Positions 9,646 through 34,429 of a stretch of 64,000 bases of DNA are shown here, piece after piece; position 1 is the stretch's first letter, and every line of letters starts with the position of its first letter. The DNA is from an uncultured Dehalococcoidia bacterium. GTDB taxonomy: Bacteria; Chloroflexota; Dehalococcoidia; Lucifugimonadales; UBA1123. The stretch covers positions 62,001-126,000 of the forward strand of contig OY282441.1 in assembly GCA_958296105.1 (NCBI GenBank), written 5' to 3'. Under the pieces are notes generated by a model that ran no database searches, was not told the origin of the DNA, and worked only from the letters and a program-made list of their open reading frames with translations. The position numbers and the translations under genes were made by a program.

Positions 9646-9693
9646 CCCTCTACTAAGAGCGCCATACTCCAATCACGAATCCAAGGAGACGGA

Positions 9694-11334
9694 ATGCAGA
9701 GCCGAGAGAACCATCTCGCCGGTATAGTCCGACGACTGGCAGGCGCCGGACGCCCGTCCGACCAGCAGCTGAAGGAAGACGCGGAGCGACTCGCAAGCCG
9801 CCTCGCCTCGTTCCCCGAGTACAACCCCAACCCCGTCGTCGAGACCGATCTGGATGGAAACGTCACCTACATGAACCCCGCCGCCAGAGAGCTGGCGGGC
9901 GACGCCCCCTCTCGACCGTCCACACACCCATTGGCAAGAGACCTCGGCCCACTGCTCGGACGCCTGATTAGGCAGGGAAGCGGCGTTCAGTCGCGCGAAA
10001 TCTTCGTACAGGGCGCGATCTTCGATCAGAAGCTGCTCTACATCCCCGAAGCCCTGACAGTTCGCATCTACTCCAGCGACGTAACCAGACTGAAGGCGGC
10101 GCAAGAAGCCATGCGCGCCGCCAGCGAGGAGGCAAACAAACTCGCGCGCGAGAACCAGATACTCGGCGAGATAGGCCGCATCGTAAGCTCCAGCTTGAAC
10201 ATAGACGACGTCTACGCCGGATTCGGCGAGCAGCTCCGCCGACTCATCACCTTCGACAGGCTGGCAATCAGCCTAGTGAACCTCGAAGAAAACACCTTCA
10301 CCAACGCCTACATACTGGGCGACGAGGTCCCAGGCCGTCAGCAGGGCGAAGTAACCTCGCTCGAAGGCACAGTCACCAACGAAGCGATCCTCTCACGCCG
10401 CGCCATAGTGATTCAGGGCAGCACCCAAGAGCTGAAGCGCCGCTACCCCAACATACTCAAGTACCCCTCCGTGGTGCTTGCCCCGCTCATCTATCGCGGC
10501 GAGCTGTTCGGCGTCCTCAACGCCAGATCGTCCGAGCATAACACATACAGAGACGAAGACGCCGAGATGCTCTCGCGCGTCGCCTCCCAGATCACCCCCG
10601 CAATCGCCAACTCGCTGCTGTACTCGGACATCGTCCGCACCCAGCAGGATCTCGCCAGATCCAACTCCGACCTCGAACAGTTCGCCTACGCCGCCTCGCA
10701 CGACCTCCAGGAACCCCTCCGCACCATAGGCGCGTACATAGGACTCGTCCGCGACAGATACGCCCACGCCCTCGACGACACCGCCATGGAGTTCATCGCC
10801 TACGCCGCCGACGGCGCCGAGCGGATGCAGGCGCTCATCACAGACCTTCTCGAATACTCCAGAGTGGACACTCAGGGCAGCCCCTTGGAGCCCATCAACT
10901 GCACTACAGTGGTCAAGAACGCGCTCGAAAACCTAGACCAGTCCATCCGACAGTCCAACGCCAGGGTCGAGCTGTCCCCGCTGCCTGTGATCAACGGAGA
11001 CCGCTCCCAACTTTCCAGACTGTTCCAGAACCTAGTCGGCAACGCCCTGAAGTTCTGCCGAGACGATAAGCCCCACGTCCGAATCTGGGCGGAGCTGCAC
11101 GATCAGGAGTGGATATTCGCCATCAAAGACAACGGCATTGGCATAGCCCCCGAGCATCAGGCGCGCGTGTTCGAGATGTTCTCGCGCCTTCACTCCAGAG
11201 CGCAGTACTCCGGCACTGGCATAGGACTCGCCTTGTGTAGTAAGATTGCCCAGCGTCACGGAGGCAGAATCTGGGTGGAGTCAGAAGTAGGAAAAGGTTC
11301 GACGTTCCGATTCAACATCCCGGTGGTTGCCTGA
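9694..11334 (+). CDS. PAS-GAF sensor histidine kinase
   Basis: This 546-residue protein has no membrane segment, so it is a cytosolic sensor. Domains in order are: a short N-terminal helix, PAS (about 40-130, YNPNPVVETDLDGNVTYMN), GAF (about 160-310), HisKA with phospho-acceptor His in YAASHDLQEPLRTIG (about 340), and HATPase_c with the N box FQNLVGNALKF, G1 box DNGIGI and G2 box GTGIGLAL. The HDLQEPLR motif is typical of kinases paired with small Rcp1/CheY-like regulators. That fits the receiver-only gene 27 bases downstream. AAGGAG lies before the ATG. The signal sensed by PAS/GAF cannot be inferred. Confidence 0.93.
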   Translation: MQSRENHLAGIVRRLAGAGRPSDQQLKEDAERLASRLASFPEYNPNPVVETDLDGNVTYMNPAARELAGDAPSRPSTHPLARDLGPLLGRLIRQGSGVQSREIFVQGAIFDQKLLYIPEALTVRIYSSDVTRLKAAQEAMRAASEEANKLARENQILGEIGRIVSSSLNIDDVYAGFGEQLRRLITFDRLAISLVNLEENTFTNAYILGDEVPGRQQGEVTSLEGTVTNEAILSRRAIVIQGSTQELKRRYPNILKYPSVVLAPLIYRGELFGVLNARSSEHNTYRDEDAEMLSRVASQITPAIANSLLYSDIVRTQQDLARSNSDLEQFAYAASHDLQEPLRTIGAYIGLVRDRYAHALDDTAMEFIAYAADGAERMQALITDLLEYSRVDTQGSPLEPINCTTVVKNALENLDQSIRQSNARVELSPLPVINGDRSQLSRLFQNLVGNALKFCRDDKPHVRIWAELHDQEWIFAIKDNGIGIAPEHQARVFEMFSRLHSRAQYSGTGIGLALCSKIAQRHGGRIWVESEVGKGSTFRFNIPVVA

Positions 11335-26865: not shown

Positions 26866-27234
26866 CTAACTCCCTATGGGCTTGTTTCGTTTCCGATCCG
26901 TCGCCGCTTCCACGTGAACACGACGCGGCTCGATATAGCTTGTCCGTCCATGCGGCGGCGGCTCGTCGAACGGCGCGCCAGCCGCTTCCGCTTCGATGCG
27001 GCGGCTGTTCCACTCGATCCAGAGACCCCGCTCCTCGGCTCTCCCCTTAGCCTCTCCTCTAGCCTCTCCCCTAGCCTCCCCTCTGGCTTCGTGCTTCTCT
27101 ATCAGGGGTCTGACAAACTTGTTCCCCAAGAAACGCGCTGTAACCATTGCCAATCCTCCCACTATGTCCATGACGGTCACGGTTATTATGGCATAAACGA
27201 CGATGAACGGCTCCGCAGGCGCGGCTTTATCCAC
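26866..27234 (-). CDS. Small membrane protein, copy 1 (N-terminally truncated)
   Basis: This 122-residue frame starts at a GTG. It has one membrane helix (PFIVVYAIITVTVMDIVGGL, about residues 9-30), a basic-acidic E-A-R-G repeat linker and a polar C-terminal tail (PPPHGRTSYIEPRRVHVEA). Compared with copy 3 the first membrane helix is missing and the original ATG-ATG start is out of frame because one base is lost just after it. It immediately precedes the BHMT-like gene. Function unknown; the duplicated arrangement suggests this copy now serves as the leader gene of that methyltransferase. Confidence 0.6.
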   Translation of the reverse strand: MDKAAPAEPFIVVYAIITVTVMDIVGGLAMVTARFLGNKFVRPLIEKHEARGEARGEARGEAKGRAEERGLWIEWNSRRIEAEAAGAPFDEPPPHGRTSYIEPRRVHVEAATDRKRNKPIGS

Positions 27235-27282
27235 TACGGTAATCAGGCCTTCATCATACCCGTTTAATTGCCGTGATGGATA

Positions 27283-27348
27283 TCAGCAACTCGCCCGCTC
27301 ACCCGAATGGAGACGGTCGAGCAGTGCAGGGGGCTGTGATGAAGGCAT
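27283..27348 (-). pseudogene. Duplicated 5' fragment of the BHMT-like gene (fragment 1)
   Basis: The frame reads MPSSQPPALLDRLH, identical to the first 14 residues of the intact methyltransferase, and then diverges (SGERASC) to a stop. It marks the boundary of a tandem duplication unit. Confidence 0.85.
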
Positions 27349-27351
27349 ATG

Positions 27352-27696
27352 CTAACTCCCCGTGGGCTTGTTTCGTTTCCGATCCGTCGCCGCTTCCACG
27401 TGAACACGGCGCGGCTCGATATAGCTTGTCTGTCCATGCGGCGGCGGCTCGTCAAACGGCGTGCCAGCCGCTTCCGCTTCGATGCGGCGGCTGTTCCACT
27501 CGATCCAGAGACCTCGCTCCTCGGCTCTCCCATCGGCTCTGCCCTTGGCCTCGTGCCTCTCTATCAGGGGTCTGACAAACTTGTTCCCCAAGAATCGCGC
27601 TGTAACCATTGCCAATCCTCCCACTATATCCATGACGGTCACGGTTATTATGGCATAAACGACGATGAACGGCTCCGCAGGCGCGGCTTTATCCAC
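27352..27696 (-). CDS. Small membrane protein, copy 2 (N-terminally truncated)
   Basis: This 114-residue frame from a GTG is almost identical to copy 1 but has a shorter linker (HEAKGRADGRAEERG). It has the same junction and the same one-base loss after the ancestral ATG pair. It is followed by a truncated BHMT start (27283-27348), so it cannot serve the methyltransferase directly. It may be a relic, although the frame is intact. Confidence 0.5.
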   Translation of the reverse strand: MDKAAPAEPFIVVYAIITVTVMDIVGGLAMVTARFLGNKFVRPLIERHEAKGRADGRAEERGLWIEWNSRRIEAEAAGTPFDEPPPHGQTSYIEPRRVHVEAATDRKRNKPTGS

Positions 27697-27744
27697 TACG
27701 GCAATCAGGCCTTCATCATACCCGTTTAATTGCCGTGATGGATA

Positions 27745-27810
27745 TCAGCAGCTCGCCCGCTCACCCGAATGGAGACGGTCGAGCAGTGTAGGGGGCTGTG
27801 ATGAAGACAT
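27745..27810 (-). pseudogene. Duplicated 5' fragment of the BHMT-like gene (fragment 2)
   Basis: The frame reads MSSSQPPTLLDRLHSGERASC and stops. It has two substitutions relative to the intact gene's first 14 codons and the same 3' junction as fragment 1, so both fragments come from one duplication event that was then repeated. Confidence 0.85.
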
Positions 27811-27813
27811 ATA

Positions 27814-28287
27814 CTAACTCCCCGTGGGCTTGTTTCGTTCCCGATCCGTCTCCGCTTCCACATGAACACGTCGCGGCTCGGTATAGCTTGTCCGTCCATG
27901 CGGCGGCGGCTCGTCGAACTGTACGCCAGCCGCTTCCGCTTCGATGCGGCGGCTGTTCCACTCGCTCCAGAGACCCCGCTCCTCGGCTCTCCCCTCGGCT
28001 CTGCCCTTGGCCTCTCCTCTAGCCTCACCCCTAGCCTCACCTCTGGCCTCGTGCCTCTCTATCAGGGGTCTGACAAACTTGTTCCCCAAGAATCGCGCTG
28101 TAACCATTGCCAATCCTCCCACTATATCCATGACGGTCACGGTTATTATGGCATAGACGACGATGAACGGCTCCGCAGGCGCGGCTTTGCTCACCACGGC
28201 AATCACGGTCTTCATCATGCCCGCGTGATTGCCGCTCGATACCTCGTCTATGGCAACGAGAGCAGTCCATCCCACCGTGTATATCAA
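27814..28287 (-). CDS. Small membrane protein, copy 3 (full-length ancestor)
   Basis: This 157-residue frame, with a TTG start assumed, includes a segment missing from copies 1 and 2: a first membrane helix (upstream frame also reads KWLPWCAGLILIYTVGW), then GMMKTVIAVVSKAAPAEPF, the second membrane helix and the longest E-A-R-G/A-E-G-R repeat linker. The frame stays open upstream to the stop of the PF13769 gene, so the start may be further upstream than 28287. Two membrane helices with a charged cytosolic tail are all that can be seen; no named family is recognised. Confidence 0.6.
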   Translation of the reverse strand: MIYTVGWTALVAIDEVSSGNHAGMMKTVIAVVSKAAPAEPFIVVYAIITVTVMDIVGGLAMVTARFLGNKFVRPLIERHEARGEARGEARGEAKGRAEGRAEERGLWSEWNSRRIEAEAAGVQFDEPPPHGRTSYTEPRRVHVEAETDRERNKPTGS

Positions 28288-28422
28288 GATTAGACCAGCG
28301 CACCAGGGCAGCCACTTTCGCGCTACGGTAAGCGGAGAGTCCCGACCATCTCCCGCCGCTCTCTCGGTATTGGGTCTTTGGGTACGTTTCCCGATGATCT
28401 TGCCGCGTGAAACCAGGTCTCT

Positions 28423-31421: not shown

Positions 31422-31563
31422 GACCAAGTTACGCCGGTGACCTGCTGAACCTAGCTGTTCTCCCTGCCGCCCTCTCGAATGGAGCGGCGATACTTGCCCT
31501 TCCAGCTCAGGCGGATTTGGCGCCCGCAGACTGCGAGCAGGCTGGGCGCCACGCCGGTTCGCC

Positions 31564-31695
31564 CTACTTGTCCTTCCCCGATAGCTCGGAGTCGGTCCCC
31601 TTGCCTTCTTGAGAGACTCGCTCCTCCCAGTCGTCTGGTCGCTCGTCCCAGCCCCGTGACTCCCAGTAGGCGTCATTGTTTGGGTTGATTGGCAT
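31564..31695 (-). CDS. Small acidic Trp-rich protein in frame with the viperin gene
   Basis: The 43-residue frame MPINPNNDAYWESRGWDERP to SGKDK starts 18 bases after the viperin stop and in the same reading frame, with no other stop between. Reading through the viperin TAG would fuse the two. The peptide is polar and acidic, has three Trp, and the NPNNDAYW-x-S-R-G-W-D-E-R-P pattern looks conserved to me from other bacterial proteins, but I cannot name its family. No ribosome-binding site of its own is evident, so it is either a viperin tail cut off by a nonsense change or a coupled small gene. Confidence 0.5.
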   Translation of the reverse strand: MPINPNNDAYWESRGWDERPDDWEERVSQEGKGTDSELSGKDK

Positions 31696-31713
31696 TTCGT
31701 CAGCCCAATTCTG

Positions 31714-32580
31714 CTACTCGTAATTTCCTCCGCGCTCCTCGAACCGATCAGGAGAGACTGATACGTTGCTCAGCGCATCCTCGACCCCAACTTGGAGGAT
31801 CGGATGGCTGTACGTGTGCCTGCCATTCACGTTGTCGTAGAATCGTCCGAGAGGATCGACCATTATGTAGCTGCCTGTCATCAGGTCGTTGCTTTCAGGC
31901 ACTACTTTCACGCCGATTTCCCGAACAGAGGAGTTGCGTTGGACGTAACGCTCGAAGTCGTCCACTGTAATGGTGAACTCATCTATCCGGGCGTCGTTCT
32001 GATACTGTACGGGTAGAGCTTGGAAGATCTTCCATCGCTCCGGACCGGCGGAGATGATGAACGGGCGAAAGTCCTCGTCCTTGTTGAAGCGGCTGACGAC
32101 CGTATTGACCTTTAGCCTAATCCCGCGTTTCCGCACTTCTGAGCAGACGGAAAGGTAGTCGTCCGCGCTCATCGGGTCGTCGGCGACGACTCGCCCGATA
32201 CTCCTCTGAGTGGCGCTGTCCACGCTGTCGACGCTCAGCGCGAGAATGTCCAGGCATCCATCCAGATCGTCGAGCCACTTCGCCGTAACTCGGGAGCCGT
32301 TCGTAACGATGGAAGTCGTCAGCCTGTGCGACTTGGCCATTCGTATGCTGTCCGAAATCCACGGGCAGAGCGTAGGTTCGCCGCCGGCGAAATTGATCTT
32401 GAGGAAGCCTGCGCCGCACAGCAAACGGGTCAGCTCGATGGAGTCGTCCCGATACAGGCTGCGTGCCCTCAGAGGGGTGGGAGTCTCCTCGAAAGTGGCA
32501 AAGCAGTACCCGCAGCCCATGTTGCAGGGCTTCCAAAGGTGGTAGTTGACCGTCGTTACGCCATCGCGCACGGGAAGCAT
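31714..32580 (-). CDS. Prokaryotic viperin (antiviral radical SAM enzyme making ddhNTPs)
   Basis: This 288-residue radical SAM protein carries the viperin-type cluster motif C-N-M-G-C-G-Y-C (Cys 19, 23 and 26) in NYHLWKPCNMGCGYCFA, the FAGGEP SAM-binding motif near residue 66, and a viperin-specific C-terminus: ESNDLMTGSYIMVDPLGRFY followed by ILQVGVEDAL and DRFEERGGNYE. The last part parallels the end of human viperin (LDVGVEEA and RGGKY). Viperins convert CTP, UTP or GTP to 3'-deoxy-3',4'-didehydro nucleotides that end viral RNA synthesis. I start at ATG 32580 (AGGTGA six bases upstream), not GTG 32589. The protein ends at an amber codon soon after RGG-N-Y-E. No nucleotide kinase is adjacent. 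Confidence 0.9.
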   Translation of the reverse strand: MLPVRDGVTTVNYHLWKPCNMGCGYCFATFEETPTPLRARSLYRDDSIELTRLLCGAGFLKINFAGGEPTLCPWISDSIRMAKSHRLTTSIVTNGSRVTAKWLDDLDGCLDILALSVDSVDSATQRSIGRVVADDPMSADDYLSVCSEVRKRGIRLKVNTVVSRFNKDEDFRPFIISAGPERWKIFQALPVQYQNDARIDEFTITVDDFERYVQRNSSVREIGVKVVPESNDLMTGSYIMVDPLGRFYDNVNGRHTYSHPILQVGVEDALSNVSVSPDRFEERGGNYE

Positions 32581-32667
32581 GATATTCACCTCATGTGACT
32601 TTTAGTAAACGGCGCGCCGCCAGTCTTGGTGAGAAGACCTTGCAGTTTCGCAACGGCGCAAGTCACG

Positions 32668-32740
32668 TGTGAGCGCGAAACCAAACTCGATTTTCGCTCA
32701 CAACACAAGCAATATTATCAGGCTGGATTGGAAATCGCAA
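32668..32740 (-). promoter_or_regulatory. Viperin promoter with operator-like palindrome
   Basis: On the minus strand TTGCGA (32740-32735) and TAATAT (32717-32712) are separated by 17 bases, a plausible -35/-10 pair about 130 bases before the viperin ATG. Right after the expected start site lies an inverted repeat TGTGAGCG/CGCTCACA (32668-32675 and 32695-32702) with a 19-base centre that also contains GAAA/TTTT. This position suits a repressor site or a 5'-UTR hairpin. The binding factor is unknown. Confidence 0.5.
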
Positions 32741-32944
32741 CCCCCTGTATGATGCGGCGAGAGAATCGCATAAGTCCCTGTGCCGTTCCCTGAAACTGCT
32801 CCACTTGGCAGTCCCGCGCGAGTTTTTGACTTCTCATTGCGACTGCGAATCCGACCAAACGCCTCTAGCGTCTAACCCCGCCGGCCTCTCCCATCCCCTA
32901 TACTGGAGTGACAGTCAGCGCTCTAAGAGAGGTCATATCGCCAC

Positions 32945-33496: not shown

Positions 33497-33534
33497 CGCC
33501 GTGTCGGATTGTGTATTATAATGAACGTAGTGTG

Positions 33535-34056
33535 ATGAGCTTCTTACAAAATCACTGGGGCGACCTGTTCAGCCTACTCGGTGTTGTGGTTTCGGGCTTC
33601 GGGCTGTTCTGGGCTATCCGCGTAGCCCAAGCCGCGAGATCGGCAGCCCAAGCCGCCGAAGAGGGCGCAATCGAGGCTAGGGACAGGATAGGGCGTCATT
33701 TACTGGCAGTAGACTTGGAGCGCGCTGTCGCTCTCATCCAACGACTCAAGCTGCTGCACAGAGAGGGACTCTGGGAGGCTGCGCTGGAGCAGTACCAAGC
33801 ACTTCGGGCAATGCTGTCATCCATAGTATCTCATCACACGGAGTTGGATACCGATAGGCGTAGACGGCTTATCGAGTTTAGAGGAATGATAACGCTGCTG
33901 GAGCAGAGTGTTGAAAAACTGTCGGCGCGAGGTCAGCCTTCTGTTGAAGACTTTGCGGAGATGAACAGTAATCTGAACCGGATTCAAGTTGATCTGGAAG
34001 ACATGGCTAGCGCATCCGGACTTGATGCAAAGCGAGGTGGTACCCAACATGGATAG
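33535..34056 (+). CDS. Membrane-anchored coiled-coil protein, unknown (cassette gene 1)
   Basis: This 173-residue protein has one N-terminal membrane helix (LFSLLGVVVSGFGLFWAI, about 9-26) and then a long helical cytosolic part starting with an Ala-rich coiled coil (QAARSAAQAAEEGAIEARD). No enzyme motif is seen. Its stop overlaps the start of the next gene by eight bases, so the two form a coupled pair. The base composition is lower in GC than the surrounding housekeeping genes, a hint of transfer. A GTG at 33511 is an alternative start. Confidence 0.65.
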   Translation: MSFLQNHWGDLFSLLGVVVSGFGLFWAIRVAQAARSAAQAAEEGAIEARDRIGRHLLAVDLERAVALIQRLKLLHREGLWEAALEQYQALRAMLSSIVSHHTELDTDRRRRLIEFRGMITLLEQSVEKLSARGQPSVEDFAEMNSNLNRIQVDLEDMASASGLDAKRGGTQHG

Positions 34057-34429
34057 GATGACTCAGATACTGACAGGACTCGTCGAGCGCAGTGAAGAGG
34101 GCAAGCTGAACTGGCACACTACCACGACAGAACCCCAAACAATGCTTGCGGTCTTGGGCGAAGTGACGGTAGTGATCAGCGCTTCCGGACGTATACTTAG
34201 TGGCGGCAAGCCAACCTACCAGCTTCACATACTGGATCAGGAAGGACGAACTGTCGAAGTCCTCAAGTCGAGCGATGACCTGGAATCTCTAATGGGTTCT
34301 CGCCCCGGACTAGCCACGCTCGAACAGTCCAAGGCGTTGGAGCGTCTGTTCGAGATGGCCAGGCGATCGGCATACGACATAGACGCGACTTTGGATGAGC
34401 TGTCCAAGCAGCTCGAGGCGATTCGATAG
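34049..34429 (+). CDS. Small soluble protein, unknown (cassette gene 2)
   Basis: This 126-residue protein starts at ATG 34049, eight bases inside the upstream gene, with AGGTGG as ribosome-binding site. The N-terminal half is predicted beta-rich (GKLNWHTTTTEPQTMLAVLG, VTVVISASGRIL, TYQLHILDQEG) and the C-terminal half forms a helix that ends in DATLDELSKQLEAI. I recognise no named family. The pair with the membrane-anchored coiled-coil protein suggests a two-component membrane complex; its place next to the viperin and FMN reductase genes makes a defence role possible but unproven. Confidence 0.65.
   Translation: MDRMTQILTGLVERSEEGKLNWHTTTTEPQTMLAVLGEVTVVISASGRILSGGKPTYQLHILDQEGRTVEVLKSSDDLESLMGSRPGLATLEQSKALERLFEMARRSAYDIDATLDELSKQLEAIR

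Follow-up and report, generated by a model that had tools for sequence, protein, structure and literature searches.

Since the products of bacterial viperins could be harmful to RNA synthesis in the cell that makes them, how these enzymes remain silent until infection is, to our knowledge, an open question. The viperin gene examined here lies in a 64,000-nt stretch of DNA (the window), which belongs to a 3.18 Mb single-contig genome and whose nearest viperin relatives are found in Dehalococcoidia. A preliminary description had read the locus as a prokaryotic viperin with its own promoter and a palindrome in an accessory stretch, without an adjacent nucleotide kinase and with neighbouring genes that could be new accessory parts. 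The viperin, the lack of a kinase and the insertion are retained here, the accessory parts are not, and a conserved structured leader in front of the gene had been missed (Table 1).

Table 1. Positions of the features at the viperin locus, in window coordinates
Feature	Position	Strand	Basis or remark
Putative promoter: TTGCGA (32735-32740), 17 nt, TAATAT (32712-32717)	32712..32740	(-)	by eye
5' hairpin, palindrome GTGAGCG...CGCTCAC	32668..32702	(-)	sequence and fold
Structured leader	32593..32666	(-)	fold, covariation, blind model match
Leader P1	32660-32666 paired with 32595-32601	(-)	fold and covariation
Leader P2	32653-32659 paired with 32614-32620	(-)	fold and covariation
Leader P3 hairpin	32641-32652	(-)	fold
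Leader P4 hairpin GUCUU-CUCACC-AAGAC	32623..32638	(-)	most conserved element; loop can pair with Shine-Dalgarno
Shine-Dalgarno GAGGTGA	32586..32592	(-)	complementary to P4 loop (GGUGA/UCACC)
Viperin CDS	31714..32580	(-)	288 aa, ATG start; NCBIfam NF038283 296 bits, PADLOC pVip 286 bits
Small ORF, 43 aa	31564..31695	(-)	begins 18 nt past viperin stop codon
Insert relative to same-genus genome G001	31422..32944	.	contains leader, viperin and small ORF

The gene encodes a true bacterial viperin. Its open reading frame on the reverse strand, which extends over 31714-32589 if a GTG start is taken, contains every viperin motif named in the preliminary description, namely CxxxCxxC (CNMGCGYC), NFAGGEP, SYIMVDPLGRFY, VGVEDAL and RGGNYE. 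The alternative GTG at 32589 falls within the Shine-Dalgarno GAGGTGA, which precedes the ATG at 32580 by 5 nt, and therefore this ATG is the most likely start of the protein. The NCBIfam viperin equivalog NF038283 matches well above its cut-off (296 bits versus 180), the MoaA model reaches 60 bits and the best PADLOC model is pVip 'not associated with kinases'. An AlphaFold model generated from an alignment of 44 viperins has a mean pLDDT of 95.6, and its best PDB match is mouse viperin with CTP (TM 0.89); mouse viperin and the viperin-like enzymes of T. virens with CTP range from TM 0.86 to 0.89, MoaA lies at 0.65. In the phylogenetic tree, which had been proposed as a check, the protein is placed inside the viperins and outside MoaA. 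The root of the viperins is not resolved in this tree because the MoaA-type outgroups sit on very long branches. Family models, PADLOC, tree placement and fold match all agree on a viperin and not a MoaA-like enzyme.

The residues that are invariant in the 44 viperins include C19, C23, C26, K61, K157, N159, K184, E229 and Y238 of the window protein. Additionally, the alignment retains equivalents of K120, R194, K220, N222, R245, K247 and Y302 of mouse viperin (5vsl), which are substrate contacts (triphosphate and catalytic positions). The conserved active-site positions and the viperin fold make an active nucleotide dehydratase likely. This radical SAM enzyme probably dehydrates a nucleoside triphosphate to its 3'-deoxy-3',4'-didehydro form, which would act as a chain terminator for phage RNA polymerases. 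Since the conserved positions contact the triphosphate, they give no information on the base that is used, and no usable discriminating residue for the nucleobase preference could be established from the sequence.

The accessory nature of the stretch is confirmed by the same-genus genome G001, in which the flanking CoxE and FMN reductase genes are only 87 bp apart, versus 1523 bp in the window. No convincing terminal repeats or target-site duplications were found as mobile-element boundaries of the insert. Within this order, few genomes carry a viperin (11 of 250), and viral contigs contain a single distant relative with 29% identity. As had been described, no nucleotide kinase was found next to the gene. 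The FMN reductase is found throughout the genus (four genomes), also in the three genomes that have no viperin, and is thus a core neighbour. The proposed membrane/soluble gene pair (33511-34429) represents a second, separate insertion on the far side of the FMN reductase, and no relatives of it were found at any other viperin locus examined. Given this synteny and the absence from the other viperin loci examined, the FMN reductase and the gene pair are not supported as viperin accessories.

The 43-aa ORF that follows the viperin gene belongs to a family of small, acidic proteins with the sequence NPNNDAYWxSRGxDERPDDWE, which is represented in the window, at L011, L012, L069 and L218 and on five plasmids. 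Its relatives lie near viperins in L011, L012 and L069, beside an HTH/TPR gene in the viperin-less genome G002 (L218) and, on plasmids, adjoining a TIR-domain or ATPase gene. Elsewhere in the window, an ORF (VYAIITVTVMDIVGGLAMVTARFLGNKFVRPLIE...) with a variable charged repeat is present in three tandem near-copies (26866-28300). The same genome encodes a second viperin (L119, G000:C1:2077001-2097000, 9666-10586 on the minus strand) with 51% identity, which overlaps a 569-aa HTH_3/TPR gene. An 856-aa protein of unknown function and a 1155-aa helicase-like protein are encoded next to it, with a methylase-like gene and a divergent ResIII gene farther out, and these surroundings look like a defence island. 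The HTH/TPR gene is a conserved downstream neighbour in a second Chloroflexota viperin clade (L007, L008, L009, L010, L013). Several viperins appear split or frameshifted (L053, L071 and the G088 and G188 loci), which suggests that viperins are frequently lost.

The leader was first seen by comparing the upstream regions of the nearest relatives, as the window, L001, L002 and L006 share the element. The same fold is found in the window, L001, L002 and partly L006: an outer helix P1, a helix P2, a variable hairpin P3, which is absent in L001, and the conserved hairpin P4. For L006, P1 was taken from the comparison and not from the minimum-energy fold. The palindrome of the preliminary description is a real inverted repeat, but it is just the first hairpin of this longer leader; a hairpin of different sequence occupies the same place before P1 in L002, L006, L156 and L003. 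The assigned promoter is plausible by eye, with 8 of 12 consensus bases, yet it remains below the threshold of the promoter scan. Folded alone, the window leader is no better than its shuffles (z -1.1). A strong single-sequence folding signal is present only in L002 and L003; the folding of the window, L001 and L006 leaders is unremarkable. An architecture with loose similarity is detected in 96 of 655 upstream regions scanned, a few of which are the leaders themselves, so that a single sequence proves nothing; in combination with the unremarkable window fold, this means that the case for the leader rests on comparison.

Overall, leaders that fold as P1-P2-(P3)-P4 were identified in seven genomes from two orders. 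Pairing is kept in 97.4% of the 116 pair cells of these seven leaders, versus 25.9-44.0% in six slid versions, double-sided changes occur in seven pairs of the leader, and the covariation score was matched by none of 500 shuffles. This alignment comprises only seven sequences, as cut cores from which P3 and the junctions had been removed, and the register was set by hand before the application of MAFFT. RNAalifold did not recover the whole structure from the uncut leaders, and the covariation result therefore depends on the hand-set register. The sequences of the P1 and P2 helices change while pairing is kept, and those of P2 and P3 have largely changed. P4 does not count as independent evidence, because several leaders were found via the P4 pattern or the structure model. 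For the leader, the comparison shows conservation, covariation and an association with viperin.

The 250 genomes of the order contain ten matches to the P4 pattern, versus one to the reversed pattern. Half of the ten are part of a whole leader with Shine-Dalgarno and start codon; four of these five precede intact viperins and one (G046) precedes a decayed viperin, which still reads SCGFCFATY and has a stop after 52 codons. Model R1 recovered the five full leaders and added one in G189 (L156, E 4.8e-4), which is located before the gene for a 46-aa Gly/Lys-rich peptide and not before a viperin. In G200, a genome of the same genus, a viperin is found at the site of this peptide, after the same hydrolase gene. 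Small Gly/Pro/Lys-rich peptides (NAPSTTGKPSGGGRGNNPPKR) without a Pfam match form a family with members at L144, L156, L032, L178, L179 and L189, which are encoded after the leader, after a viperin-kinase fusion or beside an HsdM-like gene (L178, L189).

Model R2 was applied to search 373 genomes of the class for the RNA, using no protein information. One of its 27 matches (G705, a genome of another order; 24.3 bits, rank 5-6) is followed after 35 nt by an intact viperin. This viperin was not in the prior set, and among 393 genomes of the class searched at the protein level, G705 was the only viperin carrier not already included. By our own estimate, based on 27 matches and about 1.6 billion strand-positions, the chance of a match so placed is a few in a million; position, and not score, sets it apart from noise. 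Model R2 missed the window's own leader up to E 0.1, and its other matches up to this value presented no comparable arrangement of hairpin and Shine-Dalgarno where examined. Its poor specificity rules it out as a general finder. The leader nonetheless provides a search handle, which by itself led to the G705 viperin in a different order.

All seven P4 loops contain 5-6 contiguous Watson-Crick complements to their own Shine-Dalgarno region, and the two partners occur as UCACC/GGUGA, GCACC/GGUGC (L156) and CUCUC/GAGAG (L202). This pairing totals 38 bp versus a shuffled mean of 23.8, and none of 20000 loop shuffles reached it. If the Shine-Dalgarno regions are swapped among leaders, the own combination is mildly better, as a permuted set does as well in 194 of 5040 cases; this contrast is weak because five leaders share one loop/Shine-Dalgarno version. 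In the different but related-looking leader of L003, a hairpin loop reads CUCUUUC and can pair with GGAGGAG. Judged by this complementarity, the leader appears able to hide the ribosome-binding site of the viperin mRNA. In leaders of the second viperin clade (L007, L009, L010, L025, L029), the Shine-Dalgarno is inside a stem formed by CCUACGAU with AUCGUGAGG, with little covariation yet, which may be a different way of hiding it.

These features make it probable that the viperin is leader-controlled, with a pseudoknot that would sequester the Shine-Dalgarno and repress translation until a trigger is received. The leader RNA would fold after transcription into P1-P2-(P3)-P4 and act in cis on viperin translation: its P4 loop would pair with the Shine-Dalgarno, and the resulting pseudoknot would keep ribosomes off. 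A trigger, which could be a metabolite, a protein or, during infection, altered RNA synthesis, would then open the pseudoknot and turn the viperin on, together with its presumed anti-phage role and benefit. Unlike in a typical ligand-binding aptamer, few unpaired positions of the leader are conserved, so that a small ligand is no more plausible as the trigger than a protein or altered RNA synthesis. Translational control by the P4 loop would be the most economical reading of the leader, and three other explanations have to be weighed against it. The leader-bearing viperins form one clade (96/79), within a wider clade, starred in the tree, that includes L003 (99/96), so that common descent is part of the story; in neighbouring clades, the viperin is followed by a kinase (L011, L012, L014) or by an HTH/TPR gene. 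An ordinary stand-alone viperin, whose leader resembles others through shared ancestry without a regulatory role, would also agree with the unremarkable single-sequence folding in the window, L001 and L006. However, the proteins share only 57-63% identity with the window protein, P2 and P3 have largely diverged in sequence under maintained pairing, and loop and Shine-Dalgarno change together, which renders this explanation unlikely.

The joint change of loop and Shine-Dalgarno is equally left unexplained if P4 is a DNA operator bound by a repressor instead of an RNA element, as is the variation of P1 and P2 with retained pairing; even though the P4 inverted repeat is conserved in sequence and lies downstream of the promoter, an operator is very unlikely. 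That the leader is a cassette boundary or recombination site before exchangeable genes is suggested by G189 and G200, where peptide and viperin alternate after the same hydrolase gene. Here, the complementarity to the Shine-Dalgarno persists before the G189 peptide gene and the window insert has no conspicuous terminal repeats or target-site duplications, which leaves such a site without regulatory function most improbable. Returning to the leader-controlled viperin, a further-reaching and rather doubtful proposal is that the leader represents a novel class of RNA switch, dedicated to antiviral genes and sensing infection or a metabolite. The viperin would then be silent in healthy cells and released when a phage perturbs the nucleotide pool, SAM or RNA synthesis, and a defence gene would be governed by its own RNA sensor.

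Prokaryotic viperins (pVips) are described as radical SAM nucleotide dehydratases (Bernheim et al. 2021 Nature, as cited in PMC12926258 and PMC10732462). The window protein shares the family model, Fe-S motif, active-site positions, predicted fold and tree placement with pVips, while its locus differs in the conserved structured leader, the loop complementary to the Shine-Dalgarno and the lack of an adjacent kinase. Viperin-kinase operons are found among its relatives (L011, L012, L014 and L016 with a downstream kinase ORF), as are fusions with a kinase-like C-terminal extension (L032, L035), whereas the window viperin lacks a kinase and its clade neighbours have none directly downstream. The enzyme adds a member to a known family, and the leader appears previously undescribed, since none of the papers searched reports a viperin leader. 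Translational riboswitches with a Shine-Dalgarno pseudoknot include the preQ1 and SAM-II classes. An Rfam search with five leader loci gave no relevant match, even at E 10, which speaks against a known riboswitch family as the identity of the leader; in addition, the leader differs from both classes in its few conserved unpaired positions, so that its signal may be a protein or folding kinetics. Like preQ1 and SAM-II riboswitches, this compact 5' leader could hide the Shine-Dalgarno via loop pairing; an antiviral enzyme would thereby be subject to control at the RNA level, and for one clade there would be a concrete, testable answer to how viperins are silenced.
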